From: Halothermothrix sp.
GTDB lineage: Bacteria; Bacillota; Halanaerobiia; DY22613
Assembly: GCA_016841825.1 (NCBI GenBank)
Contig: JAENYK010000001.1
Span: 124,001 to 188,000 of the forward strand
Length of the DNA: 64,000 nucleotides
Direction: 5' to 3'
In this document: positions 380-41,200 of the stretch, piece after piece
Numbering within the stretch: position 1 is the first letter of the stretch
How the letters are laid out: every line of letters begins with the position of its first letter
Notes under the pieces: model-generated
Databases searched by the model: none
Told to the model about the DNA's origin: nothing
The model's input: only the letters and a program-made list of their open reading frames with translations
Position numbers and translations under genes: made by a program

Positions 380-1618
380 TTAAGCTAACCTTTGATCTAA
401 CAGATTTTGGGTAGTCAAAAAAGCTGCCTGTAATGCTAAAGCCCGGGGAGTCACATTCTCTTCACCACTGACCAGATTATCTGGATCATTAATCCTATCG
501 AGCTCCTCTGCTTTGAGCATATAAATATCTGGTTTTTTAAAGAAAGGCAGCCTTTCGTGAATCCGTTTCTCTTTAACTCCATCAATTAGACCTTTTAATG
601 CACTTCCCCCACCACAGAAATAGATCCTGGGTGGTAACGCATTCCCTCTGGCCAATTCGGTTAATGCCATCTCCAGTCCATCAAACAATAGGTGTAGATC
701 AGGAATAATCATATCTCTGATCTCTTTAGTCATATCTGGCGGCAGTTGGTTATGCGAATACCTTAACTTTAGCTCTTCTGCATCCCGTAAAGTTATATTC
801 AACTCCCGGGCGATCTTTCTGGTAAAGGAACGACCACCAATGCCAACCATCATGGTTCCCTCAATTCCTCCATTTCTGATTAATGCTACATCCATAGTTC
901 CGCCGCCGATATCAACGACGATAGCTCCAAACTCACATGCTTCATCTGTGAGAATACTGTTGGCAACTGCATAAGGTTCTGCAATCGTTCCCACCAGTTG
1001 ATAACCCAGACCTTCTACAACTGTAGCCAATGGTCCAACATTGACCAATGGGGCATATGTATTAAATAGACTTAATGAGATATTTTTCCCCTGAAATTGA
1101 TAAGGGTTAGATACCTTATATCCATCAATCTTCACTTCCACCAACGCTGTATTGACCAGTTCTATCTCCAGATTACTCACACCTGTTGATCTGATTAGCT
1201 CTTCTCGTCCCTGACGATATGCCAACTGTTGGGCTTTTTCAATTAGTATCTCCAGTTCTTTAATGCTTATACGTTCAGTTGGTTCTTTTCGCTCTTCATC
1301 AAGGGTTGTCATCACACCTTTGACAAATTCACCAGCTATCCCGACAATTGCATCAATAGGTTCATGGGGAGTCTCCTGCTGGGCCAGTTCTACCGCCTTA
1401 CGGGCTGTCTGCAAAACCCCCTGAATATTGGCAATCGCTCCTCCCATCATGTCACTATACCTCTGTTGTACCCTTCCATATCCAACAATATTACTCTCGC
1501 TGGCATTATATTCAACGATTACAGCCTTCATATATTCTGTACCTATATCTAAAGCCAGGCGATACTTGTAACCATTGGAATCCTGGATCTTAGTCTTCCT
1601 GCTAAATAAATTTAACAT
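380..1618 (-). CDS. FtsA/PilM-like actin-fold ATPase
   Basis: Predicted cytoplasmic actin/HSP70-fold ATPase of about 412 residues, related to cell-division FtsA and pilus-assembly PilM. The fold signatures are visible: a phosphate-1 motif near the N-terminus (ALDIGTEYMKAVIVE), a phosphate-2 motif in the middle (VVDIGGGTMDVALI) and an adenosine motif (IYFCGGGSALKG). I start it at the ATG at 1618 (MLNLFSRK) because GGGAGGG lies about eight bases upstream; an upstream in-frame codon seven residues earlier would swallow that site. It follows the phosphatase-fold membrane gene by about 100 bases on the same strand, so both may serve an envelope or division process. FtsA normally sits beside ftsZ, which is not seen here, so this may be a paralogue. 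No FtsA-type C-terminal amphipathic tail is evident. Confidence 0.75.
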   Translation of the reverse strand: MLNLFSRKTKIQDSNGYKYRLALDIGTEYMKAVIVEYNASESNIVGYGRVQQRYSDMMGGAIANIQGVLQTARKAVELAQQETPHEPIDAIVGIAGEFVKGVMTTLDEERKEPTERISIKELEILIEKAQQLAYRQGREELIRSTGVSNLEIELVNTALVEVKIDGYKVSNPYQFQGKNISLSLFNTYAPLVNVGPLATVVEGLGYQLVGTIAEPYAVANSILTDEACEFGAIVVDIGGGTMDVALIRNGGIEGTMMVGIGGRSFTRKIARELNITLRDAEELKLRYSHNQLPPDMTKEIRDMIIPDLHLLFDGLEMALTELARGNALPPRIYFCGGGSALKGLIDGVKEKRIHERLPFFKKPDIYMLKAEELDRINDPDNLVSGEENVTPRALALQAAFLTTQNLLDQRLA

Positions 1619-1724
1619 TTTCTTATCCCTCCCTATCACCTTTCTTCTTTTACAATTTTCTCCAAAAGTTTAGAAAATCCTTTCTCCCACCGAAAATTTT
1701 TTCTGTTTTTTGAAAAAAATTTGC

Positions 1725-7474: not shown

Positions 7475-7673
7475 TATACAGCCTCCTTGAAAATTTCTTT
7501 AACTCTATTAGTATTCGGCACAGTACCCCTTTTACCTTTCATTTTAGGAAAATTTTTTTAAAAAATGATATTGATTGTGAAAAATTTATTACTTGAACAA
7601 ATATAAACTCAAAATCATGATAAGAATACACAATACATATCTTTATCCAGAAAATTACATCATTACACATAAC

Positions 7674-7712
7674 AATCTACTCCCAACCCCGAAAAACAGT
7701 TGGGAGTAGATT
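7674..7712 (-). terminator. Terminator at the end of the organic-acid operon
   Basis: A perfect 14-bp stem (7674-7687 with 7699-7712) lies 62 bases past the malic-enzyme stop. The T-tract on the minus strand is weak (TGTTATG), so it may also act as a 3' stabilising hairpin. The remainder of 7475-7773 is the AT-rich upstream region of the chemoreceptor; nothing else is recognised. Confidence 0.65.
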
Positions 7713-7774
7713 CACTTTGATTAAATACCTTGTCATCCTGGGAACTTTACTCCCTTTATATCAATCTTTACGAG

Positions 7775-8998
7775 CTACAAACTCATAACCTTTCTGGCCA
7801 ATTCCAACTCCTCAGTAAAGGTTCGTTTAATCCTGGCCACACCAGTCTGAACAGCAGCTTCTGCCACAGCTGCTGCGACTGTCGGACCTACTTCCCGATT
7901 AAACGCTTTCGGTAAAATATATTCCCGACTCAACTCTTCTGGTTTGACCATCTTCGCCAGAGCATGGGCTGCTGCTCTTTTCATCGCTTCATTTATCTCA
8001 ACAGCCTGCACATCCAATGCTCCTCTGAAGATTCCAGGAAATGCCAGTACATTATTCACCTGATTTGGATAGTCAGAACGCCCAGTAGCCACCACTGCAG
8101 CACCAGCTGCTTTGGCCAGTTCTGGTTCAATCTCCGGAACAGGATTAGCTAAAGCAAAGACTATTGGACTATCCGCCATCGCCTCAACCATCTCTTTCTT
8201 CAAAACATTAGCTGCAGAGACACCAATAAATACATCTGCTCCCTGAATCACATCTGCCAGACTTCCCTGTTTCATCGCTCTGTTAGTTATAGCCGCAATC
8301 TCCGTCTGAGCTTCATTGAGACCCGGGCAATCCTTGCACAGAGCGCCATTTATATCAACCAGAATGAGATCTTCAACTCCCTCATCTAATAACAACCTGG
8401 CGATACTAATACCAGCTGCACCCGCTCCATTAATCACAACTTTGATCTGATTCATCTGCTTATTGACTACTTTCAGAGCATTGATTAGACCACCTAACGC
8501 GATAATTGCAGTACCATGCTGATCATCATGGAAGACAGGAATATCCAATCTCTTCTTCAATTCGCTTTCAATATAAAAACATTCAGGTGCTTTAATATCT
8601 TCTAAGTTAATTCCTCCAAAGGTTAGGGCAATCCGTTCAACAGTTTCAATCACCTGATCGGATGTATCTGCCTGAATGATGATGGGAAAGCCATCAACTC
8701 CACCAAACTCTTTAAACAAGACCGCTTTCCCTTCCATGACCGGTAGTGATGCCAGAGGGCCAATCTGGCCCAGACCTAAAACAGCTGTCCCATTAGAGAC
8801 GACAGCAACAAAATTACCCTTATTAGTATATTTATATACATCATTCGGATTATCCTTGATCTTCCGACATGGCTCCGCGACTCCGGGCGTATAGGCTAAT
8901 GCCAGATCAGCATCATTTTTTATCGGCATCTTACCCTCTATCTTCAATTTTCCCCGACACTCTTCATGTAATCGTAATGCCACTTCACACAGATCCAT
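7775..8998 (-). CDS. Malic enzyme (oxaloacetate-decarboxylating, short bacterial type)
   Basis: A 407-residue enzyme of the short NAD(P)-dependent malic enzyme family. It oxidatively decarboxylates L-malate to pyruvate and CO2 in the cytoplasm. Landmarks are YTPGVAEPC near residue 34, the Lys/Asp-rich [16 protein letters not shown] region, the metal-binding ECFYIE and FHDDQHGTA segments, the Rossmann [13 protein letters not shown], and NPVPEI. The length is typical of the family without a phosphotransacetylase domain. It is the last gene of the operon, about 80 bases after the decarboxylase beta gene, which supports a malate-like intermediate in the pathway. Cofactor preference cannot be read with certainty. 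Confidence 0.93.
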
Positions 8999-19503: not shown

Positions 19504-19544
19504 TTCATCTTCATTTCATCTTTTACATAGATAACATAGCATAA

Positions 19545-22500
19545 TTAAATTATAAGTATTTCTACTTCAATAATTTCTACTTCAACAACTTCTACTTCAA
19601 CAACCTCTACTGCTTCCACCGCTTCTACTGCTTCCACTGCCTCAACAGCCTCTACTGCTTCTGCAGCCTCTACTTCTTCAACTTGCTCTGCCTGCTCAAC
19701 TTGCTCTGCCTGTTCAGCCTGCTCTGCCTGTTCAGCTTGTTCCGCTTGCTCGGCTTGTTCTTGCTGCTCCTGTTGTTCCTGTTGTTCCTGCTGCTCCTGC
19801 TGTTCTTGTTGTTCTTGTTGTTCCTGTTGTTCTTGCTGCTCCTGCTGTTCCTGTTGTTCTTGCTGTTCTTGCTGCTGTTGGACTGGTTGTTCACCACCAC
19901 CCTGAATATCCTGTTGACCTGGATTTAACTCAGCCTGAGCCTGTTCTCTTGGTTCTACAACATCCCGTTCCGCATTTCTGAATTCATCCTGTTGTGCTTG
20001 CACCTCTTCTCTGGTTGCCCTTCCTGCTCTCCAATCTCTAAATTTCGTCCAGACCTTCCAGCCTATATCACCCAGGAAGAATATAGTAAGTCCATAGCCG
20101 ATATACTTCATTATCGTATCAAACAATGGTGTTTTGTAATTGTTATCAGGCGGTGGAGGTGTGAGAGTACCATAATAATTACTATTTGTAGGTTCTGTTC
20201 CTCCTTTATCCCATACTTTACCCGTAAATGATGGAGTAATCGTCTGATTATCTTTACTGGGATCAGGTTTAGGTATATAGAAGGTAATCGTCGCATTTGA
20301 TTGATTGGCAGTATCATTCCAGGATAAGACCGGATTATTGAACTGCCATTCTTTGATCTGCTGTCCATTATACATAATTACGCTGTCTTCCTGACTCTCT
20401 GCACCTACAACCTGGAAGGAAGGCCCTGTCTTCCAATTACCACTTCCATCATCCTTGTAAGTATAATAGTTACCACTCCAGGATAATAGATAGTCAATAT
20501 CAATTTCGCCAAACCAGTTCTGATCCGCAGGTTGTTTATCACCCTTCTTCCAATAGTATCCGGAGAACTCACGAATATTGGTGTTAGGTTTTGTAAAGAC
20601 AGTAATGTTCCCATTAAAATCATTATCTGCATCTGTCCAGGAAAGTACCGGATTATTAAAGGCCATATTTTTGATAGTCACTCCACCGACTTTGATTATA
20701 GAATCCTGACCCGGTTCACCGCCCTGAATGATAACTTCTGGCCCTGTGTTCTTATTTAGCGTTGTCTTATAATATCCTGACCATGGTGACAGATATTTTT
20801 CATCAATACTACCATAGAAGTTCGCTTGAGGTGGTACAGGTTTACCTTTATCATTTATTGTTCCGGAAAAACCGGTTACATTAGTATTACTATTTAGATA
20901 GAAAGAAACCTGAACATTAGTATCATTATCGGTATCTTTCCAACTAAGTATTGGAGTACGATATTCAAAGTTTATAATCGTTTTCCCTCCATAGAATATC
21001 TGGCTCTGGGCTAATGTATCACCGGCTTTGACGATTAATTCAAGCCCGGGAGTGTAACTCCCATCTGAACCCTTAATCAGAGTTGAATAATATCCATTCC
21101 ATGGTTTTAGATAAGAGGTATCAAGACTACCGCTGTAATTTACATCTGCAGGTTTGCTCTGACCTTTATCCCAGATGTATCCGGAGAAGTTTGCAGTATA
21201 TCCAGTACTGTCATCATTTGGCTTCATATAGAAGTTCAGTTCACCAGATGTAGAATTATCATCACTACTCCAGGTTAATTTTCCTGTTTCATATGTAAAA
21301 TTCTTAATCTCGGTCTCTCCCAAAGATACAGTGTTATTTGTACCATTAATTAATACCGCATCTCCGGTTACCCAACTGCCGCCACTGTTTTTAAAGGTCT
21401 TATATAATCCATCCCATACTGATATAGTCGAAGGTGCACTTGTGCACTCGCCCTGAACATTATTTGAAGCAGGTTCAGATTGACTGGTATACCACATTTT
21501 GCCTGTAAAAATTGGATCAATTTTGCTGTCTGGATCTTTCCAACCAAATTGCAGTGTAGCATTGACAGAATTACCATCCCCAGTACTCCAGGATAAAACA
21601 GAATTTTCATAGGTGAATTTTTTGATGTAAATCCCATTATAATAGATCTGACTCTTCCAACTGGTCTGATCCCCAACAATAGTAACAATCGCATCATCAA
21701 AGTTGGTCTTATAGTTCCCGGTCATTGGAAGCAGCGATTCCTGTAAAACCTGGTCATAGGTGGTCAAAACATCTTCAAATGTAGTTGCATATCCCTGCTG
21801 CTTGATCCATTCATTAACACTCTCTTCCCCCTCTTCTACCTGCCCATATTTAGAAATAACTTCATGGAAACTATCACCAAATGTTGGACTTTGTAGAACC
21901 TGATACACAAAATCTTTAGCCACGTCTTCAGCGTTTGGTTTGGCCAACATTCGTAAAGTATTAGACGATGGAGCAACTAACCTATTCTGAACATGTTCCG
22001 ATAACGCAGGTTTTTGTTGACTGAGAACATCTTTAGGATTAACAAAATATTTATGAAGTTTCTTAACATCCTGACTGACATCAATCAAGAATTGACCTGT
22101 AGGTGTAGAAACAGTACGTCTATAATCTGGTGGAACTTTGAAATTCGCAAACTCTTTTAAAGCATTAAACTCTACTTGTCGATATGTCGTACGGTCTGCC
22201 GGTGAATATGGTTTATCCGGAATTTTCAAATTGAGTTTTTGATAGATTTCGGCATTCGGTCCACGCAACTCTTTTGGAGGAATATAGAATGAAGAAATCC
22301 CGGATATTTTTTTCGCATTTTCATGATCATATAACTGGGCAATGGTAAAATGTTCGATTCGCGGTTTAATAGTAGCAAAAATAGAACCAATATAATGAAC
22401 AATCTCCTGATCGGGTCCATAAATGTCTTTCAAATAGTCTAAAAGCAGATGGAAATTCTCATTCTTATAGCCCCGTCTCCTGAAACCAGTGTCAAGCACA

Positions 22501-23642
22501 CAACCAACCTGCCAGAGTATTACATGCTGGTCTGTATTGATTTTCCGCCCCCGTAATAATAGGTCGGTCGCTTCAAAAGTTTGCAGACCAGGGAAAGATG
22601 GATCTATGCCAATGTCGGCAAAAAGACTGTCCATCGCTGAGACTGCAGGCAGCATCTCCGCGGTAAAACCTTCTCTTCTGGCGATTGTAATGGCCCGATG
22701 AGAAGGACAGACAAACACTCCCGGATGACCATAAAAGATACCTACTACTTTAAATCCCAACCGAAGATGATGCAGTAATATTTCAGACATTTGTACATAA
22801 GTATTGTAACGAATTTTGCTATCACTATAGAAGACATATAAGTCCAGTGCATCAGGTCTTAACTGTTGAATATACATCTCTGTAGGAGCATCTGCGACAC
22901 AATAAAACACCTTATCTGCTGCTTTAAGATGACCGATTGCTTCCATTGTCAGATGACCAAGCTTCAAACCAGAGCCCAATACGTATAAACTACCATATTT
23001 AAGGGCTGATTTGGTCGGAATAATTGGTTTGGTCGGAATTTCTCGAACCATCCTCTCCCATTTGTTTCGTTCAAGAGTTTCCGGGTGATTAGTCGATAAT
23101 TGTTTTTCAGCCACAACGTCGGGATTTTCACCTTCTTGGTGGAAGGATTTGATCTCCTGTCCTTTTAAGCCATCCAGATTGGGAACTGTACCGAGAGCAG
23201 ATTCTTTGGCTTTGATTAAAATTGGCTTACCCTTAAAATCCATCTCCGGAAATAACAGATAATTACCAGATATAATAATTAATGATTTTCCTGATGGTTT
23301 AATAGCCCGCTCGAAAGTAGAATATTTATTGGTTGCCCAGGCGTTGCCCAAATAGTTCTCTTTTTCAAACACAACTAATCCTTCTTTTGGTAGTAAACGA
23401 ATCGATTCAACCATCATCTTGGAACTGAGCTCAGGATAATTCCCATCTTTCTTGGGACCACCATCCGCAGAAATAACCGTACAAATACCTTCATAATTAG
23501 GTTTATCATAAAGCAGCCAAGTACCATCATCTACTTTAATAGAAGCAACTTTCTGAGATTTCTCGAACCGTTTTGTATCATTAGATAGCGAAAACGGTGC
23601 ACCTGTAAAATTAAATTTACTGAATAACGTAATTTTACTCAT
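19545..23642 (-). CDS. Giant protein: crystallin repeats, borosin-like N-methyltransferase, beta repeats, tripeptide-repeat tail (copy 1)
   Basis: 1365 residues. (1) Residues 1-145: four Greek-key motifs of beta/gamma-crystallin type (FNFTG, PNYEG, ENYLG, MDFKG). (2) About 215-475: a tetrapyrrole-methylase-fold SAM domain that closely follows the borosin precursor-methyltransferase OphMA as I remember it: VFYCVADAPTE, R278/Y282 at the catalytic Arg/Tyr, FYGHPGVF (303-310), SLFADIGIDP, FEATDLL, LWQVGCV and SSFYIPPK. (3) About 480-570: a region resembling the OphMA clasp. (4) About 570-635: helical, faintly Nif11-like. (5) 640-1160: five ~100-residue beta-rich repeats, each with a W.G.Y..T start and LSW core. 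(6) One hydrophobic segment, about 1174-1192. (7) 1251-1365: Glu-Gln-Gln, Glu-Gln-Ala and Val-Glu-Ala repeats ending in Val/Ile. No signal peptide. GGAGGG supports the ATG. I infer autocatalytic backbone N-methylation of the tail; this is untested. Confidence 0.8.
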   Translation of the reverse strand: MSKITLFSKFNFTGAPFSLSNDTKRFEKSQKVASIKVDDGTWLLYDKPNYEGICTVISADGGPKKDGNYPELSSKMMVESIRLLPKEGLVVFEKENYLGNAWATNKYSTFERAIKPSGKSLIIISGNYLLFPEMDFKGKPILIKAKESALGTVPNLDGLKGQEIKSFHQEGENPDVVAEKQLSTNHPETLERNKWERMVREIPTKPIIPTKSALKYGSLYVLGSGLKLGHLTMEAIGHLKAADKVFYCVADAPTEMYIQQLRPDALDLYVFYSDSKIRYNTYVQMSEILLHHLRLGFKVVGIFYGHPGVFVCPSHRAITIARREGFTAEMLPAVSAMDSLFADIGIDPSFPGLQTFEATDLLLRGRKINTDQHVILWQVGCVLDTGFRRRGYKNENFHLLLDYLKDIYGPDQEIVHYIGSIFATIKPRIEHFTIAQLYDHENAKKISGISSFYIPPKELRGPNAEIYQKLNLKIPDKPYSPADRTTYRQVEFNALKEFANFKVPPDYRRTVSTPTGQFLIDVSQDVKKLHKYFVNPKDVLSQQKPALSEHVQNRLVAPSSNTLRMLAKPNAEDVAKDFVYQVLQSPTFGDSFHEVISKYGQVEEGEESVNEWIKQQGYATTFEDVLTTYDQVLQESLLPMTGNYKTNFDDAIVTIVGDQTSWKSQIYYNGIYIKKFTYENSVLSWSTGDGNSVNATLQFGWKDPDSKIDPIFTGKMWYTSQSEPASNNVQGECTSAPSTISVWDGLYKTFKNSGGSWVTGDAVLINGTNNTVSLGETEIKNFTYETGKLTWSSDDNSTSGELNFYMKPNDDSTGYTANFSGYIWDKGQSKPADVNYSGSLDTSYLKPWNGYYSTLIKGSDGSYTPGLELIVKAGDTLAQSQIFYGGKTIINFEYRTPILSWKDTDNDTNVQVSFYLNSNTNVTGFSGTINDKGKPVPPQANFYGSIDEKYLSPWSGYYKTTLNKNTGPEVIIQGGEPGQDSIIKVGGVTIKNMAFNNPVLSWTDADNDFNGNITVFTKPNTNIREFSGYYWKKGDKQPADQNWFGEIDIDYLLSWSGNYYTYKDDGSGNWKTGPSFQVVGAESQEDSVIMYNGQQIKEWQFNNPVLSWNDTANQSNATITFYIPKPDPSKDNQTITPSFTGKVWDKGGTEPTNSNYYGTLTPPPPDNNYKTPLFDTIMKYIGYGLTIFFLGDIGWKVWTKFRDWRAGRATREEVQAQQDEFRNAERDVVEPREQAQAELNPGQQDIQGGGEQPVQQQQEQQEQQEQQEQQEQQEQQEQQEQQEQQEQQEQQEQQEQAEQAEQAEQAEQAEQAEQVEQAEQVEEVEAAEAVEAVEAVEAVEAVEAVEVVEVEVVEVEIIEVEILII
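19548..19892 (-). repeat. Nine-base coding repeat encoding the C-terminal tripeptide-repeat tail (copy 1)
   Basis: Imperfect tandem 9-base units encode, in order, about 13 Glu-Gln-Gln units, about 8 Glu-Gln-Ala-type units, about 8 Val-Glu-Ala-type units and a final Val/Glu/Ile-rich stretch ending EVEILII. Synonymous changes (CAG/CAA, GAG/GAA) between units show the repeat is maintained at protein level, although slippage clearly varies its length between the two copies. Confidence 0.9.
20584..23003. repeat. Direct repeat, copy 1 of a ~2.42-kb identical segment
   Basis: This stretch aligns with 25113-27532 at a constant offset of 4529 bases. I found no difference on reading, and translations in non-coding frames are identical too, so the identity is at DNA level. 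It covers the methyltransferase, clasp and most beta repeats. The first mismatches are at 20583 and 23004. Confidence 0.85.
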
Positions 23643-24094
23643 TTTTGCCCTCCTTATCTAATTTAACCTTACCAAACCACATCATTTAGATTGCTTAATT
23701 ATTTTTACTCATCTCCCCTCTGTTTCAAATAAGCTGAGTTGGGCAATGAAATGTGTACTGATCATTATTTTGATTAATCTACAAAATAGTAATTTATGTT
23801 TTTTTAGTTAAATACATCTATTATCTTATTCTACTCTTTTTCATATATTCCTCCTTGAAATATATTTTTACAGTTTGATCGAACATCTTTTGAAAAAGCC
23901 CGAAATAAAGCCAACGATTAAAGTGAGACATATAAAAAAATTAAGGCTGTTTCGCAATGTTTAACCATTTCGAAACAACCTTCTTTATTACATGTCATCT
24001 CCAAATTTATCTCATTTAATGGAAAAGAATGTATATAGTAACCGATAGCAACCTGTTCATCTTCATCTCATCTTTTTATCCAAACTGCCCAAAA
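23643..24094. other. Intergenic region upstream of copy 1 and downstream of copy 2
   Basis: No gene of normal size. It holds a decayed terminator arm (about 24040-24056), the functional-looking terminator 23934-23982, and a stretch (23816-23856) shared with the region upstream of copy 2. That shared stretch contains an SD-like AGGAGG followed by a seven-codon frame (MKKSRIR, ATG at 23844). I see no convincing sigma-A promoter. Confidence 0.6.
23934..23982 (-). terminator. Intrinsic terminator of the second crystallin/methyltransferase gene
   Basis: A 12-bp stem with one mismatch (23943-23954 with 23971-23982) is followed on the minus strand by AATTTTTTT. It lies about 110 bases beyond the copy 2 stop. 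Confidence 0.85.
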
Positions 24095-27000
24095 TTAAAT
24101 TGCAATTATCTCTACTTCTACAACTTCAACTGCCTCTACTACCTCTACTGCTTCAACTGCTTCAACTGCCTCTACCGCTTCTGCAGCCTCCACTTGTTCG
24201 ACTTGCTCTGCCTGTTCTGCCTGCTCTGCCTGTTCCTGCTGTTCCTGCTGTTCTTGTTGTTCTTGTTGTTCTTGTTGTTCCTGCTGTTCCTGCTGTTCTT
24301 GCTGCTCCTGCTGTTCCTGTTGTTCCTGCTGCTCCTGCTGTTCTTGTTGTTCTTGTTGTTCTTGTTGTTCTTGTTGTTCCTGCTGTTCCTGCTGTTCTTG
24401 CTGCTGTTGGACTGGTTGTTCACCACCACCCTGAATATCCTGTTGACCTGGATTTTGCTCAGCCTGAGCCTGTTCTCTTGGTTCTACAACATCCTGTTCG
24501 GCATTTCTGAATTCATCCTGTTGTTCCTGCACTTGTTGTCTAGATGCTCTTCCGGCTCTCCACGCTCTGAATTTCTTCCAGACCTTCCAACCTATATCAC
24601 CCAGGAAGAATATAGTTAGTCCATAACTCATATATTTCATTATCGTATCAATCAATGGTGTTTTGTAATTGCTATTAGGTGGTGGAGGTGTAAGAGTACC
24701 GTAATAATTACTATTTGTAGGTTCTGTTCCTCCTTTATCCCATACTTTACCCGTAAATGATGGAGTAATCGTCTGATTATCTTTACTGGGATCAGGTTTA
24801 GGTATATAGAAGGTAATCGTCGCATTTGATTGATTGGCAGTATCATTCCAGGATAAGACCGGATTATTAAACTGCCATTCTTTGATCTGCTGTCCATTAT
24901 ACATAATTACACTGTCTTCCTGATTCTCTGCACCTACAACCTGGAAGGAAGGCCCTGTCTTCCAATCATCACTTCCATCATTCTTGTAAGTATAATAGTT
25001 ACCACTCCAGGATAACAGATAGTCAATATCAATTTCGCCAAGCCAGTTCTGATCCGCAGGTTGTTTATCACCCTTCTTCCAATAGTATCCGGAAAACTCA
25101 CGAATATTGGTATTAGGTTTTGTAAAGACAGTAATGTTCCCATTAAAATCATTATCTGCATCTGTCCAGGAAAGTACCGGATTATTAAAGGCCATATTTT
25201 TGATAGTCACTCCACCGACTTTGATTATAGAATCCTGACCCGGTTCACCGCCCTGAATGATAACTTCTGGCCCTGTGTTCTTATTTAGCGTTGTCTTATA
25301 ATATCCTGACCATGGTGACAGATATTTTTCATCAATACTACCATAGAAGTTCGCTTGAGGTGGTACAGGTTTACCTTTATCATTTATTGTTCCGGAAAAA
25401 CCGGTTACATTAGTATTACTATTTAGATAGAAAGAAACCTGAACATTAGTATCATTATCGGTATCTTTCCAACTAAGTATTGGAGTACGATATTCAAAGT
25501 TTATAATCGTTTTCCCTCCATAGAATATCTGGCTCTGGGCTAATGTATCACCGGCTTTGACGATTAATTCAAGCCCGGGAGTGTAACTCCCATCTGAACC
25601 CTTAATCAGAGTTGAATAATATCCATTCCATGGTTTTAGATAAGAGGTATCAAGACTACCGCTGTAATTTACATCTGCAGGTTTGCTCTGACCTTTATCC
25701 CAGATGTATCCGGAGAAGTTTGCAGTATATCCAGTACTGTCATCATTTGGCTTCATATAGAAGTTCAGTTCACCAGATGTAGAATTATCATCACTACTCC
25801 AGGTTAATTTTCCTGTTTCATATGTAAAATTCTTAATCTCGGTCTCTCCCAAAGATACAGTGTTATTTGTACCATTAATTAATACCGCATCTCCGGTTAC
25901 CCAACTGCCGCCACTGTTTTTAAAGGTCTTATATAATCCATCCCATACTGATATAGTCGAAGGTGCACTTGTGCACTCGCCCTGAACATTATTTGAAGCA
26001 GGTTCAGATTGACTGGTATACCACATTTTGCCTGTAAAAATTGGATCAATTTTGCTGTCTGGATCTTTCCAACCAAATTGCAGTGTAGCATTGACAGAAT
26101 TACCATCCCCAGTACTCCAGGATAAAACAGAATTTTCATAGGTGAATTTTTTGATGTAAATCCCATTATAATAGATCTGACTCTTCCAACTGGTCTGATC
26201 CCCAACAATAGTAACAATCGCATCATCAAAGTTGGTCTTATAGTTCCCGGTCATTGGAAGCAGCGATTCCTGTAAAACCTGGTCATAGGTGGTCAAAACA
26301 TCTTCAAATGTAGTTGCATATCCCTGCTGCTTGATCCATTCATTAACACTCTCTTCCCCCTCTTCTACCTGCCCATATTTAGAAATAACTTCATGGAAAC
26401 TATCACCAAATGTTGGACTTTGTAGAACCTGATACACAAAATCTTTAGCCACGTCTTCAGCGTTTGGTTTGGCCAACATTCGTAAAGTATTAGACGATGG
26501 AGCAACTAACCTATTCTGAACATGTTCCGATAACGCAGGTTTTTGTTGACTGAGAACATCTTTAGGATTAACAAAATATTTATGAAGTTTCTTAACATCC
26601 TGACTGACATCAATCAAGAATTGACCTGTAGGTGTAGAAACAGTACGTCTATAATCTGGTGGAACTTTGAAATTCGCAAACTCTTTTAAAGCATTAAACT
26701 CTACTTGTCGATATGTCGTACGGTCTGCCGGTGAATATGGTTTATCCGGAATTTTCAAATTGAGTTTTTGATAGATTTCGGCATTCGGTCCACGCAACTC
26801 TTTTGGAGGAATATAGAATGAAGAAATCCCGGATATTTTTTTCGCATTTTCATGATCATATAACTGGGCAATGGTAAAATGTTCGATTCGCGGTTTAATA
26901 GTAGCAAAAATAGAACCAATATAATGAACAATCTCCTGATCGGGTCCATAAATGTCTTTCAAATAGTCTAAAAGCAGATGGAAATTCTCATTCTTATAGC

Positions 27001-28171
27001 CCCGTCTCCTGAAACCAGTGTCAAGCACACAACCAACCTGCCAGAGTATTACATGCTGGTCTGTATTGATTTTCCGCCCCCGTAATAATAGGTCGGTCGC
27101 TTCAAAAGTTTGCAGACCAGGGAAAGATGGATCTATGCCAATGTCGGCAAAAAGACTGTCCATCGCTGAGACTGCAGGCAGCATCTCCGCGGTAAAACCT
27201 TCTCTTCTGGCGATTGTAATGGCCCGATGAGAAGGACAGACAAACACTCCCGGATGACCATAAAAGATACCTACTACTTTAAATCCCAACCGAAGATGAT
27301 GCAGTAATATTTCAGACATTTGTACATAAGTATTGTAACGAATTTTGCTATCACTATAGAAGACATATAAGTCCAGTGCATCAGGTCTTAACTGTTGAAT
27401 ATACATCTCTGTAGGAGCATCTGCGACACAATAAAACACCTTATCTGCTGCTTTAAGATGACCGATTGCTTCCATTGTCAGATGACCAAGCTTCAAACCA
27501 GAGCCCAATACGTATAAACTACCATATTTAAGAGCCGATTTGTTTGGAATAATAGGTTTTGCCGGAATCTCGCGTGCCAATCTCTCCCACTCATTGCGTT
27601 CAAGAGTTTCCGGGTGATTGGCTGATAATTGTTTTTCAGCTTTATCATCAGGATTCTCACCTTCTTTGTGGAAGGATTTTATCTGCTGTCCTTTTAAGCC
27701 ATCCAGATTGGGAACTGTACCGAGACCAGATTCTTTGGCTTTAATTAAAATTGGTTTACCTTTAAAATCCATCTCTGGAAATAACAGATAATTATCAGAT
27801 ATAATAATTAATGATTTTCCTGATGGTTTAATAGCCCGTTCGAAAGTAGAATATTTATTGGTTGCCCAGGCATTGCCCAAATAGTTCTCTTTTTCAAACA
27901 CAACTAATCCTTCTTTTGGTAGTAAACGAATCGATTCAACCGTCACCTTGGAACTGAGTTCAGGATAATTCCCATCTTTTTTGGGACCACCATCCGCAGA
28001 AATAACCGTACAATTACCTTCATAATTAGGTTTATCATAAAGCAGCCAATTACCATCATCTACTTTAATAGAAGCAACTTTCTGAGATTTCCCGAACCGT
28101 TTTGTATCATTAGATAGTGAATGTGATGCACCTGCAAAATTAGATTTACTGAATAACGTAATCTTACTCAT
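24095..28171 (-). CDS. Giant protein: crystallin repeats, borosin-like N-methyltransferase, beta repeats, tripeptide-repeat tail (copy 2)
   Basis: A 1358-residue tandem paralogue of the 19545-23642 gene with the same architecture. The methyltransferase, clasp and most beta repeats (about residues 214-1019) are identical in sequence. The crystallin-like N-terminus differs at about twenty positions. The last beta repeat, the hydrophobic segment and the linker (for example RASRQQVQEQ against RATREEVQAQ) also differ. The tail has about 18 Glu-Gln-Gln units against about 13, fewer Glu-Gln-Ala and Val-Glu-Ala units, and ends VEVVEVEIIAI instead of EIIEVEILII. I start at the ATG at 28171 (MSKITLFS), which has GGAGGG eight bases upstream exactly as in copy 1; an upstream in-frame start 11 codons earlier would overlap that site. 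Each gene has its own terminator, so the two are separate transcription units. No protease, transporter or separate precursor peptide gene is adjacent. Confidence 0.8.
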   Translation of the reverse strand: MSKITLFSKSNFAGASHSLSNDTKRFGKSQKVASIKVDDGNWLLYDKPNYEGNCTVISADGGPKKDGNYPELSSKVTVESIRLLPKEGLVVFEKENYLGNAWATNKYSTFERAIKPSGKSLIIISDNYLLFPEMDFKGKPILIKAKESGLGTVPNLDGLKGQQIKSFHKEGENPDDKAEKQLSANHPETLERNEWERLAREIPAKPIIPNKSALKYGSLYVLGSGLKLGHLTMEAIGHLKAADKVFYCVADAPTEMYIQQLRPDALDLYVFYSDSKIRYNTYVQMSEILLHHLRLGFKVVGIFYGHPGVFVCPSHRAITIARREGFTAEMLPAVSAMDSLFADIGIDPSFPGLQTFEATDLLLRGRKINTDQHVILWQVGCVLDTGFRRRGYKNENFHLLLDYLKDIYGPDQEIVHYIGSIFATIKPRIEHFTIAQLYDHENAKKISGISSFYIPPKELRGPNAEIYQKLNLKIPDKPYSPADRTTYRQVEFNALKEFANFKVPPDYRRTVSTPTGQFLIDVSQDVKKLHKYFVNPKDVLSQQKPALSEHVQNRLVAPSSNTLRMLAKPNAEDVAKDFVYQVLQSPTFGDSFHEVISKYGQVEEGEESVNEWIKQQGYATTFEDVLTTYDQVLQESLLPMTGNYKTNFDDAIVTIVGDQTSWKSQIYYNGIYIKKFTYENSVLSWSTGDGNSVNATLQFGWKDPDSKIDPIFTGKMWYTSQSEPASNNVQGECTSAPSTISVWDGLYKTFKNSGGSWVTGDAVLINGTNNTVSLGETEIKNFTYETGKLTWSSDDNSTSGELNFYMKPNDDSTGYTANFSGYIWDKGQSKPADVNYSGSLDTSYLKPWNGYYSTLIKGSDGSYTPGLELIVKAGDTLAQSQIFYGGKTIINFEYRTPILSWKDTDNDTNVQVSFYLNSNTNVTGFSGTINDKGKPVPPQANFYGSIDEKYLSPWSGYYKTTLNKNTGPEVIIQGGEPGQDSIIKVGGVTIKNMAFNNPVLSWTDADNDFNGNITVFTKPNTNIREFSGYYWKKGDKQPADQNWLGEIDIDYLLSWSGNYYTYKNDGSDDWKTGPSFQVVGAENQEDSVIMYNGQQIKEWQFNNPVLSWNDTANQSNATITFYIPKPDPSKDNQTITPSFTGKVWDKGGTEPTNSNYYGTLTPPPPNSNYKTPLIDTIMKYMSYGLTIFFLGDIGWKVWKKFRAWRAGRASRQQVQEQQDEFRNAEQDVVEPREQAQAEQNPGQQDIQGGGEQPVQQQQEQQEQQEQQEQQEQQEQQEQQEQQEQQEQQEQQEQQEQQEQQEQQEQQEQQEQQEQAEQAEQAEQVEQVEAAEAVEAVEAVEAVEVVEAVEVVEVEIIAI
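24098..24430 (-). repeat. Nine-base coding repeat encoding the C-terminal tripeptide-repeat tail (copy 2)
   Basis: Same organisation as the copy 1 tail, but with a longer Glu-Gln-Gln block and a shorter Val-Glu-Ala block. The DNA units CTGTTGTTC, CTGCTGTTC and TTGTTGTTC (plus-strand reading) alternate irregularly, showing unit-level shuffling. Confidence 0.9.
25113..27532. repeat. Direct repeat, copy 2 of a ~2.42-kb identical segment
   Basis: Partner of 20584-23003. First flanking mismatches are at 25112 and 27533. Identity over 2.4 kb beside clearly diverged flanks points to recent gene conversion, though an assembly artefact is not excluded. Confidence 0.85.
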
Positions 28172-32283: not shown

Positions 32284-35200
32284 CTATTTAATCGAACTTT
32301 TTTCAGTCTGATGAATAATCTGAGCCACCTGGTCAGCCTGATATTGAACAAAATAATGTCCCCCACCAGTTACTACACCTAGTCTGACCAGTTCAGAATA
32401 TCTGCTCCAATCCTGATAATGCTTATCATAACTCTTTGTCAAAGGATCTTTATCCCCAATAATACTGTAAATCGGTGCATGTAATTTTGATAGATGCTGC
32501 ATCTCCAAATGATTGACAAAGTACTCCATAGATTCCCGAACATCATGCCGAAAACTCTGAATGATAAACGCCATCTCTGTTTGACTCAATTCACCACTAA
32601 AAGCCCCTAAACGTTTCAGAAAATCATAGATCTCTCGATCAGAATATTTCTCCCAGGGATCTGTCTCAATCTTTTTGAAGAGTCGTTTTTTAACTGGCAA
32701 AATACCCCCAAGATAGATGGTTCTAATCTCTTGACCCTTCTCTTCTAATCGCCGGGCAATCTCCAGAGTCAATCCACTCCCTACACAATGTCCATAAAGA
32801 ACAAGTGGTGTCTTGATCTGTTGTAAAATCTCCCGAGCAGACTCTTCTGCTATCTCATTAAGTGGTTTTAATTCTTGTTCAAAACCAAAATCATGACCGG
32901 GTAACGAGATAGAGTAAATTGCATATTCATTGGATAACTGACTGAGGGCACTAGCCAATGGTTGATAAACAATCGGATTGCCTCCACCGTAAGGAATACA
33001 GACTATCGAGACTCGCTTATCTTCAGCAGGGATCGTCAATTGATACAAAACCCCCCGTTTAACTGAATCATTTTCTCTGAGGTACTTAGCCAGACTCTCA
33101 ATAGTTGGATGTTGATACATATCTGCCAGAGTGAATTGACCACCCGCTTTTGCTACAATTCGTAAAGCTTTTAATGAGTCTCCTCCCAGATGGAAGATAT
33201 TGTCCCGAACTCCGATCTGTTCAACCTGTAAGACTTCAGTCCAGATATCAATCAGATTAGCTTCAACTTCATTAGTAGCTGCAGCGTATTCCACACCTCG
33301 GCTAACGCTATTGTCTGGATCTGGCAATGCCCGACGATTCACTTTGCCATTAGCCGTTAAAGGCATCTTTTCTAATTTGACAAAATGAGCAGGAATCATG
33401 TATTCAGGTAATTTCTCAGCCAGATAAGCTCTGAGTTCAGGAACTGAGATATCCTGAATAGGAATGATGTATGCACAGAGTTCCCGGTGATAATCCTGGA
33501 TATCTCTGGCTGCTACCACGACTTCCCGAATCTTTTCATGGCTCAATAATCTGGCTTCAATCTCACCGATCTCGATTCTAAAACCTCTCACTTTAACCTG
33601 ATAATCCAGACGCCCAAGGAACTCAATATTCCCATCATCCAACCATTTTGCTAAATCACCTGTTCTATACATCTTCCGACCAGGTATGAATGGATCTTCA
33701 ACAAATTTCTCCCCACTTAACTCAGGTCGATTCAAATATCCTCTGGCCACTCCTACACCAGCAACACATAATTCCCCCGGTACGCCTACTGGTTGAAGAT
33801 GATTGTCCCGATCAAGAATATAGATCTGGACGTTATCAATTGGCTTGCCAATCGGAACCATCTCCTGATAATAATCCACAGGGCAATCAAAATAGGTTAT
33901 ATCTACTGTAGCTTCGGTTGGACCATAGAGATTATGCAGTGTCGTACCGTTAGTAGCATATAATAGCTGGTTAAATCTTTTAATCTGCTGCGAGAATAAC
34001 GCTTCACCACTGACAAATACTCGCTTCAGTGTCGCCAATCGCTTCAGATCAGTCAGATTTTCCAGATATTCCAGAAAGATCTGTAACATCGATGGCACAA
34101 AATGGATAGTAGTAATTCCATATCGCTGAATACTATTAAGTAAAGTTTCAGGTTCTTTCTCACCTTCAGGTTTTAAGAAACAGACCCTGGCTCCTACTAA
34201 AAACCACCAGAAGAGTTCCCAGACCGAGACATCAAAAGTAAACGGAGTCTTTTGTAAGATAATATCTTCATTTGTCAGTTGATATCTATTCTGCATCCAA
34301 TTCAATCTATTAATTACTGAACAGTGTTCGATCATTACCCCTTTGGGGCGGCCAGTGGAACCGGAAGTATAAATTATATATGCCAGATTTTCAGGGCCAG
34401 CAGTTCTCCCAATCCCGACACCTTCTTTAGTATAAATTTCCGGGTCTTCAAGATTAATCATCTCTCCGGCAAATTCGATCTGTTCAAGATAACGCTCCTG
34501 AATCAACAATAACTCTGAATTACTGTCTTCCAAGATGAAACTAATTCTTTCCTCCGGATAATTAGGATCAATCGGCAGGTATGCACCTCCAGCTTTCAGG
34601 ATTGCCATAATCCCAACTAACATCTCCAGTGAACGTTCAACCATTATCGCAACTGGATAATCGGGTTGAACTCCTTTTTCTCTAAGCAGTCGTGCCAGTT
34701 GGTTGGCTCGTAAATCCAACTCCCGATAAGTCATCGTATCATCGGCAAAATAGACTGCAATCTCCCCGGGAGTAATCTGTACCTGTTCTTCAAAGATCTG
34801 CTGTAAAGTCTTTGTTTTCGGAAACTCTCGTTTTGTATCATTAAATCCTTCTAACAGTCGATTTCTCTCTTCACCAGAGAGCATTTCCAGCTCGGAGATT
34901 TGCAGCTCTGGATTATCAACCATCAGCTCTAAGATATTCCGATAATGGTCAAACATTCTCACTATTGTAGACTTCTTGTATAGACTGCTGCTATATTCCA
35001 CATCTAAATAAATTTCAGTCTTAGCTTCAACTGCATTCACTAATAGATCAAACTTAACCATTTTATTTTTGAAGGAATAGGGGACAAATTCTAAATCATC
35101 AATTACTATTCCCTGTTTACCTGAATCAAAATTGTGCATAGCAAATGCTGTATCAAATAATGGATTACGACTCAGATCCCTTTCCAGGTCAAGTTTCTCA

Positions 35201-38200
35201 ACCAACATGTCAAATTGATAACCTTGATATTCAAAGGCTTTTAACGCTCTATCTTTGACCTCCCTGATCAATTGCAGAATCGTCTTCTCTCTCTTCGGTC
35301 GATTACGCAGAGCCAGAGTATTGACAAACATACCCATGATATTCTCCAGATCAGAATGGGGTCTACCCGCAATCGGTGCTCCAACAATAATATCATCTTG
35401 ACCAGAATATTTGGCCAGCAGGATATTATAGGCAGCCAGTAAGATCATAAAGTTGGTACCACCTTCTTTGACAGCCAACTCAGTAACCTTACGAGCCAGT
35501 TCCTGCTCGATAACCACCCTTACTCCATCACCCTCAAATCTCCGCACCAGAGGTCTGGGATAATCTGTTGGTAGATTAACAACCGAAATCTCATCGGCAA
35601 AGGTCTCTAACCAATAACGTTCCAGTTCTTCAATCTCCCCCGATTCCAGTAATCTATTCTGCCAGACAGCAAAATCTTTGTACTGAATTCGCAATTCTGG
35701 CAAATCTATCCCCTGATACAGTTGAAGAACTTCACGAATCATCAATCCCATTGAGATAGCATCTGAAATAATATGATGAACATCCATCATTAACAGATAT
35801 CTATCTCCCAGAGTGCACAGACCAACCCGCAGTAACGGCGCCTGGGTCAGATCGAAAGGTCGAACAAAGTCTTTTACCATCTGCAAAACTACCTGATCTT
35901 CATCAACAGCCTGAGCCAGATTTAGATCAGCCAGAGTCATCTGCTCCAGAACAAATTCGACTTCCTGCTGAACTTTCTGCACTGGAATTCCATCAATAAA
36001 CTCAAAAGATGTTCTAAAAGCCTCATGCCGTTGAATCAATCTTTGACAGGCTATAGTAAACTTATCCAGATTCAGATCACCTTTGACAAAGATAGCAGCC
36101 GGTAAATTATAGTTAGTACTTTCAGGATTTAATTGATTTAAAACGAACATTCTCTTCTGGGCTGAAGAGACCGGATAAAATTCCTGTTGACTCACTATCG
36201 GTATTCCTGTATACAGACTCTTTTCTGCAATCTGAATATATTCTGCCAATTCGCTAATAGTGGGGGTTTTGAAAATCTCCCGCAGAGGAATCTCTACATT
36301 GAATTCTTTATAGATTCGGGAGACCAGAGTAATCGCTTTTAATGAATGACCCCCTAATTCGAAGAAATTGTCATCAATCCCAATCTGAGAAACACCCAGG
36401 ATCTCTTTCCCCAATTCCACCAATTTCTCCTCCACAGGATTCTCTGGTGGTACATATTCCGTACTGGTCACCAGATTGCTTTCTGGCTCCGGCAGAGCTG
36501 AACGATCAATCTTACCATTGGCATTCAATGGCATCTTCTCTAACTGAACAAAATATGCCGGAACCATATATTCTGGCAACGCCTCTTTCAAATACTGTCT
36601 TAACACCTGAAGATCTAATTCTGCCAGACCAATCAGATAAGCGCACAGATATTTATTTCCATTCATATCTTCATAATCAATGACCACTGCTTCTTTAATC
36701 TGAGGATGATTTACCAGACAACTTTCGATCTCCCCCATCTCGATTCGAAAGCCGCGAATCTTCACCTGATAATCTTTACGTCCAAAGAACTCAATATTGC
36801 CATCAGCTAACCAACGACCTAGATCTCCAGTTTTATACATTCGCACAGTCTCTTTTCGGGCAAACGGATCTGCCAGAAATACTTCCCGGGTTCTCTCGGG
36901 ATCATTGAGATAACCCCGACCAACACCTATGCCTGCCGCACAGATCTCACCTTTGACCCCTACCGGGCAGGGCTGGAGATACTTGTCTACAATATAGATA
37001 TTAAAGTTTTGGATAGGCTTACCGATCGGGATGCTCTCCAGCTCAGAAGCTCTATCCATCACATAATGGGTAATATCATCTGAGGCCTCAGTTGGACCAT
37101 AGGCATTAACCAACTTAATATTCGGATATAGTTCAAACCATCGCTTCACCAGATTTGGCTTGACTGTCTCTCCTGTAACCAACAGATATTCCAGATCTGC
37201 GAATTCTCGACAATCCACTTCCAGATAATCGAGAATTACCCCTAATAAAGACGGAACAACCTCTAAAATTGTCACTTTATCAATTATTACCTGGGAAATA
37301 AGTTGACCAGGGTCGAGACTGAGCTCATTAGAATAGATGACTGTCTTACCACCCAGATTTAATGCCGCAAAGAACTGCCAGACAGAGATGTCAAAACAGT
37401 GCGATGAATTTTGAGCTATGATGCTGTCCTGATCTAATTGAAGATCATTGATCTTAGCCTGCAGGTGATTCATCATCCCAATATGTTCAACCATAGCACC
37501 TTTAGGTCTACCTGTAGAGCCGGAAGTGTAGATAACATATGCCAGGTTATTCATCTCTAGCGGTAAATCCAGATTGGATTCATCTTCCTTTCTAATCTCA
37601 CCATCCCGATCATCTAATAAGATCGTCTCCCCGGGGAATCCCAGATCACCATCTTGATATTTTGCTAAAGTTAATAATATATTAGTAGTAGAATCCTGCA
37701 AAATTCTACTAATCCGTTGTCCAGGATACTCAATATCTATCGGTATATAAGCTCCGCCGGCCTTCCAGACCGCCAAAATTCCTTCAACCAGCAGTGGAGA
37801 ACGTTCCAGAAGAATACCAACAGTCTGGTCACTTTCCAGGCCAGATTTTTTCAGTACACGGGCCAGTTGATTAGCGCGGGCATTCAACACACCATAGGTC
37901 ATTTCGACTCCTTCATATACCAGAGCAAATTTTTCTGGATTATCCGCAGCCCGTTCTTCAATCAATTGATAAACCGATCTGTCCCGGGAAAAATCGGCCC
38001 GATTATCATTAAACCTGACCATCACCAATTCTCGTTCTTCTGGCGAGAAAATATTCAAATGGGCTAGAGGTTTTTCAGGATATGAAATAATGTCTTTGAT
38101 CAGATTCAGAAAATGTCCAGCCATAGCCTGAATAGTCTTCCGTTTAAAAAGTTGAGTACTATATTCCATGACAAAATTGATTCCCTGAGACATCTCAGTC

Positions 38201-41200
38201 GCTGTCAATGTCAAATCAAATTTAGCTACATTGTACTCAAACTCCTGAAGGCGGAAGGTTAAACCTGGAATATCAAAATTTGATGTCGGTGTGTTCTGTA
38301 AGGCCAACATAGTATCAAACAATGGGTTGCGACTCATATCCCGTTTTAAATTCAGTTGATCTACCAACATTTCAAACTGATAGTCCTGGTTTTCATAAGC
38401 CCGTAAAGCTCTCTCTTTGACAACTCCCAGAAATTGATCAAAACTTAACTCACCCTGTGGGTAATTTCGCATAGCCAAAGTGTTAACAAACATACCGATA
38501 AGATGTTCCAGATCAGCATGGGGGCGGCCGGCGATAGGTGTACCGACAATAATATCCTCCTGTCCTGTGTATTTGGCCAGAAGAACATTATAGATCGCCA
38601 ACATAACCATGTACAGTGTCGCGCCTTTCTTGGCAGCCAGATTATTCAACTCTATAGTATGACTTTTCGACAGACTAAATCTATAGACATCGCCTCCAAA
38701 GACCATTATTGCTGGCCGCGGATAATCTGTCGGCAAATTCAACAATGGTAGTTCGCCGCTAAAAGTCTCTAACCAATATTTTTCCTGCTCTCTGGCAAGC
38801 TGGGACTCAAAAAGTTTATTCTGCCAGTGAGCAAAATCCCGGTATTGGATCTTCAATTCCGGAAGCTCTCTTCGATCATAGAGAGCGACAAAATCTTTTA
38901 CCAGAATACTGATCGAATAACCATCAGAGATAATATGATGCATATCAAATAAGAATAGATGTTTGCTATTCCGATCATCTGTTCTGATCTTCACCAGATT
39001 CACTCTGAGTAAAGGAGCTACACTTAAGTCAAAAGGACGGATAAATTTGCGAATAAACTCTGTCAGATCTTCTTCGTCAGCCTCTTGATATTCCAGATTA
39101 ATCGGTAAATGCTGATGCACTCTTTGAACTACTTCCCCTTCTACCACGTGGAAAGAAGTTCGCAGAGATTCATGCCTGGCGATCAACTCATTGATTGACC
39201 AGATAAAATGCTCCCGATCCAACTCTCCCTCAACGATCAAAACAGCAGGCATATTATAATGAATGCTTGTCCCACCATCCAGTTTATACAGGACAAACAT
39301 CCTCTTCTGAGCAGAAGAGACCTGATAATATTCCAGCTCTTCCACTGCTTCAATGGAATCATAGATACTCTCTTCCGCCCCGGAGATTAAACTGGCTAGT
39401 TCCTTAACTGTTGGACAGTTAAAGATATCTTCCAGAGTGATCTCAACACCAAAAGCTTTTTTCACCCTGGCAGCCAGTAGAGTAGCATTAAGGGAATGAC
39501 CTCCCAGGTCATAGAAATTATCATCTCGCTCCACATGCTCAACCCCAAAAACCTCTGCCCAGATCTCAGCCAACAATTCCTCAATCTCTTCCAGAGTAGC
39601 ATCAGGACTCAGGACTCTCTGGTCATCGGTTTTAACAGCAGCAGAAGGTTGAATTTTTAGCTTCACTCTCCTAATCTTCCTGCTAATCTCTGGAGGCAGT
39701 TTAAGCGGGAACTCTCCCTCAATCGCAGCCAATAGCTGGTAATTTAACTCTCCAGGAATAACTGTAACCAGTTGAGAATGGATCACCCGATCAAAAGACC
39801 GTAAAGCTTTTAGGGTAGAGAGAGATTTAAAGACCAACTGCTCATCGTTTACTCCATAATCAACAGCCATCCCGGTCTCCTTCCAGGCAGGCCAGTTAAT
39901 GGCTATAGCTCTCCGTCCCCGTTTATTCAAATATTGTGCATAGGCATCAAGGTAGGCATTAGCTGCTGTATAATCACCCTGACCTTTGCCTCCCAATAGA
40001 GAAGCTATTGAGGAGAACATTACGAAAAAGTCCAATTGCTCATCCATGGTTAATCTATCCAGAAGCCAGGTGCCGTGAATCTTAGGTGCCAGCACTTCAC
40101 GAAAGATTGCTTCTTTTCGTAAGGTCAAAAGACCATCTCCCGCGAGCCCGGCTGCGTGAATAATCCCATTAATTCCACCAAAGGTAGTTTTCAATTCTGC
40201 AATAACCCTTTCCAGATCAGTAGAACTGGTAACATCCCCGGTATAAAAATGAATTTTGACTCCTCTGGCTTCTATCTCCTGAATTTTACTGATCTTCATT
40301 GCTAACCGGGAGTCGGGTTTCTGAGCCAGAATCGTCTCCCATACTTCCCGTCCGGGGAAAGTTGAACGATTCAAGAGTGCCAGATCTGCTCCGACCGCGC
40401 TGCTGGCAAGATAATGACAGATCTCTAAACCAATTCCCCCTGTTCCACCAGTAATCAGATAGACTCCTCCCTGACGGAAAACAGGTAAATTACCTGTCAC
40501 ATCAGGAGTCATCTCTCTCGCTTTAAGTTGTACAAACTTCTCTCTATACCGTTGACCCTGACGATAAGCTACCAGATATTCCCGTCCAGTAGTCTGCAAT
40601 TCTTTACACAGAAGGTCGATGCCGGTCTCTCCATCTATATCAAGACACCTACAGTTCAATTCAGCCATCTCCTGACTGACAACTTTACCAAGACCGAATA
40701 AACTCGCTGCAGCTGGTTGAATAATCTGTTCCCTACCCGTCACTTCATGTACCCGATCTGCAACCAATACTATCTCCAGATTATCTTTGATCCGATTATG
40801 AACGATAGCCCGACTCAAATAGAAAAGACTCATAACCCCATGATCCAAAATTGAGGACAGATCTGTCAGTCCTTTTGCCAACTGCCCAGTTAATTCATCA
40901 TTATCCTCACTCTCAATCATACTCTGCAGATGAATAATCTGACCCAACTTTCTCCCTTTTAGTTCTGCAAATAACCGTCGATAATCTTCTTCCGTCTCCC
41001 GAATTAAGAATTTTTCCTGGTTAAGTTGAGCATATTCAGCACCAATCTCAACCTGAATAACCAGTTTTCCCAACTGATTTAACCTCTCAATCAAGTTGTC
41101 AGCTATTCCCCGGGAATCTTTGAAGACGAGCAGATCTCCCTCTGTCCATTTCTCAGCTTCCTGAGTTAACTCTTCAAGCTCCCAGCCAGGCTGATAATAA

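Follow-up and report, generated by a model that had tools for sequence, protein, structure and literature searches.

By methylating backbone nitrogens, borosin enzymes offer a way to peptides that are stable and permeable. In the fungal borosins OphMA and dbOphMA a methyltransferase and a clasp are followed directly by a short hydrophobic core within ∼400 residues, whereas in the type IV split system SonM/SonA the enzyme, which lacks a clasp, and a short precursor are separate proteins. Here we describe two tandem genes in a 64-kb stretch of the genome of Halothermothrix sp. (contig JAENYK010000001.1, positions 124,001–188,000; this whole stretch is called the window). We suggest that each of the two proteins is very probably a fused (class 1, type III-like) borosin in which an S-adenosylmethionine-dependent peptide backbone α-N-methyltransferase is joined to a complete precursor, as judged from homology, predicted structure and analogy to characterized borosins.

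With OphMA and dbOphMA the window proteins share the methyltransferase and clasp, 47–49% identity in the enzyme domain, the active-site residues and the fold. On the contrary, crystallin, beta modules, hydrophobic helix and acidic repeats are all absent from the fungal proteins, which do not group with the window enzyme in the tree. SonM is likewise a homologous enzyme, and SonA shares the helical borosin-binding leader. A further comparison is offered by KchMA, a fused bacterial protein which methylates itself with up to 11 methylations at residues 742–796 (PMC11395268). Compared by description, KchMA agrees with the window proteins in having methyltransferase and core in one bacterial protein, a long acidic-alternating core at the end of a long chain and the same catalytic residues; its methyltransferase lies near the N-terminus (Y73/R79/Y83), too near for a crystallin front end. 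The original prediction had regarded the architecture as one not met before. This stands for the crystallin/five-module composition and for the host, but bacterial borosins that are fused and have an acidic-alternating core had been found and tested before (PMC11395268), so that what is new is the domain composition and the host. New are the crystallin front end, the giant form with five modules, the clostridial occurrence (with one ortholog, in Desulforamulus aquiferis) and a tract of 2.4 kb that is identical in both copies. No earlier description of a borosin combined with a crystallin was found in a literature search that did not cover the primary papers on types V–X, so an earlier report is possible; borosins and crystallin are mentioned together in three papers, of which the two listed treat plant peptides and the general mining of biosynthetic potential.

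An enzyme of the borosin kind

Both open reading frames are intact over their full span, in line with the two tandem proteins of ∼1360 residues originally reported. Both products have the same order of modules: β/γ-crystallin, α-N-methyltransferase, clasp with helical leader, five beta modules, hydrophobic helix, (EQQ)n linker and an acidic/aliphatic C-terminus. The genes and their putative catalytic parts are as follows.

24095–28171, minus strand: putative fused borosin gene, copy 2; the upstream gene, an open reading frame of 1358 residues from an ATG preceded by the ribosome-binding site AAGGAGGGCAAAA
19545–23642, minus strand: putative fused borosin gene, copy 1; the downstream gene, an open reading frame of 1365 residues with leader and ribosome-binding site as in copy 2
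26762–27538, minus strand: predicted α-N-methyltransferase of copy 2, residues 212–470, with Y269, Y272, R278, Y282, Y304, S335 and Q378
22233–23009, minus strand: predicted α-N-methyltransferase of copy 1, residues 212–470, the same as in copy 2 from residue 214 on
26252–26761, minus strand: predicted clasp and Nif11-like helical leader of copy 2, residues 471–640, from helices in the AlphaFold model, the structural match to OphMA and the homology of the leader to separate precursors
21723–22232, minus strand: predicted clasp and helical leader of copy 1, residues 471–640, identical to copy 2

A leader of ∼45 bases, similar in both copies, precedes each ATG, and copy 1 has a terminator-like hairpin at 19506–19476. 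A TTG at 28204 is listed as an alternative start of copy 2 but is less likely, because both ATGs are preceded by the identical ribosome-binding site.

The enzyme domain carries the Pfam label TP_methylase. When it was compared with the PDB sequences by phmmer, the matches were dbOphM (9e-80), OphMA (2e-78), Mycena MroMA (7e-69) and SonM (2e-38), and the alignment extends as far as OphMA residue 340, in agreement with a clasp. The motifs FYGHPGVF, SLFADIGIDP, LWQVGCV and SSFYIPPK are present in both copies. We regard chance as excluded as the source of this observation, because the E-value to the PDB entries dbOphM and OphMA is ∼1e-79 and because the nonsynonymous divergence (dN) from the D. 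aquiferis ortholog is 0.34 at saturated synonymous divergence (dS).

The seven catalytic, substrate and SAM positions are also all in place: Y269, Y272, R278, Y282, Y304, S335 and Q378 correspond to Y63, Y66, R72, Y76, Y98, S129 and Q172 of OphMA. These positions are defined by mutants of OphMA and KchMA, and in KchMA the mutations mostly abolish activity (PMC11395268). The equivalents of OphMA Y66, R72, Y76, Y98 and Q172 are invariant in all 46 aligned sequences; the assignment of R278/Y282 to the position of the catalytic pair, OphMA R72/Y76, is thereby borne out.

Residues 205–745 were modelled with AlphaFold as a single chain from 46 sequences, plasmid-derived rows being left out (mean predicted local distance difference test score, pLDDT, of 88). 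OphMA structures are the top Foldseek matches of this model (E 2e-35), and the structural match reaches OphMA residue 377. A best structural match to a CobA/RsmI-type methylase without a clasp had been named as the result that would count against a borosin; the model instead gives a VIA Z of 23 to OphMA as compared to 12.8 to the CysG methylase. Thus, sequence, active-site residues and predicted fold all support a methylase of the OphMA/borosin kind, as originally proposed.

The precursor half and its relatives

The C-terminal end of both proteins consists of a glutamine-rich linker and an acidic repeat, and the repeat tail that had been reported was recovered as a tandem repeat.

24233–24415, minus strand: (EQQ)n linker of copy 2, residues 1253–1313, within a tandem repeat at 24230–24403
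19758–19886, minus strand: (EQQ)n linker of copy 1, residues 1253–1295, a tandem repeat
24098–24232, minus strand: probable core of copy 2, residues 1314–1358, (A/V)E-alternating with the terminus VEVVEVEIIAI, a pattern shared with separate TEV/TDV/VD cores and the D. aquiferis tail
19548–19757, minus strand: probable core of copy 1, residues 1296–1365, with the core pattern and the terminus VEVVEVEVVEVEIIEVEILII

In the window tails Glu alternates with Ala, Val and Ile. A long stretch in which acidic residues take turns with others, the mark of a type III core (PMC11395268), is present in these tails, and in both copies enzyme and tail lie within one open reading frame, which sets them apart from the split borosins (types IV–X). 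Similar C-terminal signatures are found at VEIIAI and VEILII (window), VEIIVI (D. aquiferis), VEVLIV (Erwinia), VEVLAEDDD (Burkholderia) and VEVIVVM (Methylumidiphilus). A genome scan yielded 537 relatives, of which the best 80 were kept, and plasmid matches in addition. Core-like stretches occur in 28 of 45 long-type loci as compared to 3 of 35 short-type loci; the Fisher p of 6e-7 is a guide only, since the pattern was chosen after viewing the window tail and the related loci are not independent. As the pattern and the terminal signature recur in stand-alone precursors and core-like stretches go with the long-type loci, the VE-rich C-terminus is probably the core, its limits being a guess.

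Four gene arrangements of one set of modules were found. In the first, the enzyme adjoins a precursor that consists of a helical leader, beta modules and a TEV/TDV core (Azorhizobium, L041; Methylumidiphilus, L043). In the second, an enzyme with leader stands beside a beta-module precursor with a TEV core (Burkholderia arboris, L003/L021; L023; Sphingomonas, L032), and this split between leader and beta modules is seen in B. arboris, Sphingomonas and an alphaproteobacterium. The split systems L041, L043, L003/L021 and L032 are built from parts that the window proteins also have (enzyme, leader, beta modules and an acidic core of repeats), but these are distributed over two genes, the beta modules number two or three, a crystallin is lacking, and the repeats are TEV or TDV. 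In the third arrangement one protein comprises enzyme, leader region and beta modules, and beside it a separate precursor has a VDVD/IDID core followed by additional C-terminal sequence; this arrangement was found in Azospirillum, Mycetohabitans, Methylococcaceae, Paenibacillus, Nannocystis, cyanobacteria, Bacteroidota and others. Such separate precursors, with long VDVD, IDID or TDTD stretches followed by more C-terminal sequence, lie directly upstream of the enzyme–leader–beta proteins in many phyla (L014, L016–L020, L022, L024–L028, L030, L033, L034, L036, L044, L048 and L054). In the fourth arrangement everything is fused, as in both window copies, D. aquiferis (L010) and Erwinia phyllosphaerae (L011). 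The window proteins are the all-in-one extreme of the set, which bears on the question of how enzyme, leader and core became fused or split.

The window leader matches the N-terminus of the stand-alone precursors of L041 (7e-9) and L043 (8e-8), in which the leader is followed by beta modules and a TEV/TDV core, with a hydrophobic helix also noted before the core. Because the C-terminal half is homologous to stand-alone precursors of split borosins, the window protein, as judged from these alignments, combines an enzyme with a whole precursor in one chain, and the fused precursor of the original prediction is well founded.

The ortholog of D. aquiferis Bs105 has the whole set of parts, from the crystallin through five beta modules and the helix to the EQQ linker and a VEVV core, at 58–59% identity; it differs in being a single copy with other neighbours, and its frame is interrupted in the draft. 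There it falls into three open reading frames (L010, 5465–9401), which may reflect sequencing error or decay. The protein of E. phyllosphaerae (1000 residues) is also a complete fusion of enzyme, leader, beta modules, hydrophobic helix and an AEA/AEV core, but has two beta modules, no crystallin and an extra AEV repeat before the enzyme. This second repeat lies at residues 117–145 (open reading frame 5443–8445), and the protein possibly has cores at both ends.

In the tree the window and D. aquiferis proteins are sisters (100/100) inside a bacterial clade (100/97). Direct kinship with the fungal borosins, considered in view of the 49% identity, finds no support, as many bacterial members are equally near to dbOphM and the window proteins lie inside the bacterial clade; the fungal pair groups with Erwinia, Xenorhabdus and Trinickia, weakly (87/52). 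No relatives were found in 120 further genomes, which had been drawn as relatives, in 397 more of the phylum or in 58 more of the class (overlapping sets), nor among viral contigs and phage records. In the family of D. aquiferis 1 of 10 genomes has a relative, and the other Bacillota in the wider group belong to Paenibacillus. The sister placement, the patchy occurrence and the different gene neighbours of the window and D. aquiferis loci would fit with horizontal transfer. The host itself is consistent with the anaerobic Firmicute that had been proposed from the letters: the window encodes IreB and Germane proteins, and the closest gene is that of D. aquiferis.

Some relatives have other shapes. 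Three Bacteroidota proteins of ∼980 residues (L049, L050, L053) have an N-terminal borosin-type methyltransferase and a long C-terminal part, with no other Pfam match in L050. In actinobacterial and verrucomicrobial open reading frames of 737–850 residues (L056, L058, L066) the methyltransferase is C-terminal, as in the published type 0/XI arrangement, and the N-terminal extension may partly be an effect of calling open reading frames. Archaeal borosin-type methyltransferases were seen in Haloarcula, Methanomassiliicoccus and Nitrososphaera (L009, L065, L072). A prolyl oligopeptidase gene lies beside the methyltransferase in Haloarcula, after the enzyme gene, and in Bradyrhizobium.

Proposed self-methylation and possible fates of the tail

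For a fused borosin we suggest, by analogy to OphMA, SonM and KchMA, the following course. Two chains, encoded by either gene, would dimerise as OphMA does, and the helical leader would put the tail of one chain, flexibly tethered by (EQQ)n, into the active site of the other. The backbone amides of Val, Ile and Ala in the (A/V)E stretch would be methylated stepwise from N to C, the acidic residues being largely spared. Beta barrels and crystallins would lie outside the catalytic machine, most simply as spacer, solubility, binding or anchoring modules.

Several observations weigh against this suggestion. Despite the Z of 23, the AlphaFold monomer superposes on OphMA at a root-mean-square deviation of 17–19 Å, so parts of the model are placed unlike in OphMA; this could arise from predicting one chain of an OphMA-like interlocked dimer. 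The probable core lies ∼670 residues beyond the leader, far more than in OphMA, although the KchMA core is also distant from its enzyme. Finally, there is no protease or cyclase gene within the 64-kb window, and the release of borosin peptides, which had been part of the original prediction, is therefore unsupported so far.

The missing protease suggests a possible, if less probable, alternative which is compatible with a fused borosin, namely that the methylated acidic tail is kept and that the protein is a self-modifying structural or surface protein. The crystallin and barrels would then serve binding or stability, the helix membrane contact, and the methylated tail would be protease-resistant. 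In agreement with this, the crystallin, barrels and helix have the look of structural modules, the tail is the end of the chain with nothing following it, and the linker is hydrophilic and probably flexible; in addition, the beta modules gave the match to a Pfam lectin family described below. Nevertheless, to our knowledge few bacterial borosin products are known, so the missing protease is weak evidence, and S9 peptidase genes are present elsewhere in the genome. Moreover, no signal peptide is apparent in the window proteins, and the helix is a borderline case for a membrane span. More speculatively, and with somewhat less confidence, the proteins might be self-methylating structural proteins whose tail stays on the crystallin/barrel scaffold as a polymer that resists proteases and perhaps binds metals or membranes, borosin chemistry being a means of protein maturation. 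Were the tail indeed to stay on the protein, this chemistry would serve for more than the making of small natural products.

It is unlikely that the enzyme modifies another precursor in trans and that something other than its own VE tail is the main substrate. Most relatives (the enzyme–leader–beta proteins of Methylococcaceae, Paenibacillus, cyanobacteria and others) do lack a core of their own and stand beside separate VDVD precursors, but no separate core-like precursor was seen adjoining the window genes, and the window tail has the pattern of a core. That the gene pair is decaying or silent appears very improbable: the D. aquiferis ortholog is interrupted and the distribution very patchy, but both window frames are intact, dN/dS is about 0.2 at the diverged ends of the copies, and there is strong constraint against D. 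aquiferis. An ordinary tetrapyrrole methylase of the CobA/CysG/RsmI kind with fused domains, as the Pfam label might suggest, can be dismissed with near certainty, as both sequence and fold match borosins far better, clasp and leader are present and the borosin-specific residues are invariant. Thus, we prefer the fused borosin with its own tail as substrate.

Further modules, the second copy and the neighbourhood

The other features of the two genes are the following.

27926–28165, minus strand: β/γ-crystallin domain of copy 2, residues 3–82 (PF00030, E 2.8e-16)
23397–23636, minus strand: β/γ-crystallin domain of copy 1, residues 3–82 (PF00030, E 2.2e-16)
27677–27919, minus strand: second, degenerate crystallin-like domain of copy 2, residues 85–165, from phmmer alignments to gamma-crystallin D over residues 1–144
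24692–26251, minus strand: five beta modules of copy 2, ∼100 residues each, residues 641–1160, from repeat alignment and a small barrel model
20163–21722, minus strand: five beta modules of copy 1, residues 641–1160, from open reading frame and repeat alignment
24557–24670, minus strand: hydrophobic helix of copy 2, residues 1168–1205, Kyte–Doolittle 1.12, a helix in a low-confidence part of the model
20028–20141, minus strand: hydrophobic helix of copy 1, residues 1168–1205, Kyte–Doolittle 1.19
25113–27532, minus strand: identical tract, copy 2 side

The β/γ-crystallin module, noticed before, is confirmed by PF00030 with 60 bits at a curated cut-off of 25. Among the domains found in the genome, crystallin domains occur only in these two genes. 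A calcium-binding kind was rejected, as the canonical (N/D)(N/D)xx(S/T)S motif has no match in residues 1–200.

The five beta repeats were also recovered, starting in copy 2 at residues 641, 743, 848, 954 and 1055, and the module occurs in 38 open reading frames of related loci. Each module is predicted as a small barrel (AlphaFold block pLDDT mostly 85–95). The nearest shapes are avidin/calycin barrels at a VIA Z of 7–8, a level rated common by the VIA notes, and Foldseek gave no match of the module model at E ≤ 0.001. Assignment to a known family was rejected, since a PDB profile search gave only E ∼0.1 to phage tailspikes. A fragment with modules 2–3 weakly matched the OAA-lectin SBD family PF17882 (27.6 bits, cut-off 20), a match absent from the Pfam listing of the whole protein. 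The hydrophobic segment of the original prediction is real, with counterparts in D. aquiferis, Erwinia and Azorhizobium, but as a membrane span it is borderline (best 19-residue Kyte–Doolittle mean 1.1–1.2).

The identical tract comprises bases 640–3059 of the open reading frame and corresponds to 20584–23003 in copy 1, with 0 mismatches in 2420 bases. The parts so covered are the enzyme, the leader and the larger share of the beta modules; at both ends the genes have diverged. This suggests recent gene conversion, in which the enzyme would have been homogenised but not the tails and crystallins; the identity may also be an effect of the assembler collapsing the copies. Two intact copies with near-identical enzymes and different tails provide a natural comparison of substrates.

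Upstream on the same strand lie genes for a polyketide synthase (PKS) and a large PKS/non-ribosomal peptide synthetase (NRPS), an acyltransferase, part of an energy-coupling factor (ECF) transporter, a small methyltransferase and a nitronate-monooxygenase-like protein. Downstream, also on the same strand, are a PrpR-type sigma-54 regulator and genes for tricarboxylate transport and aconitase. No recognisable borosin processing gene is among these neighbours, and a biosynthetic link with the PKS/NRPS genes was considered but nothing was found in its favour. These genes (32284–48895) code for a PKS of 1617 residues and a giant PKS/NRPS of 3922 residues in an apparently anaerobic bacterium, with the separate acyltransferase at 49063–50310. 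An 18-base tandem repeat of 3.6 copies lies at 54541–54604, within the coding region of a DUF4097 protein.

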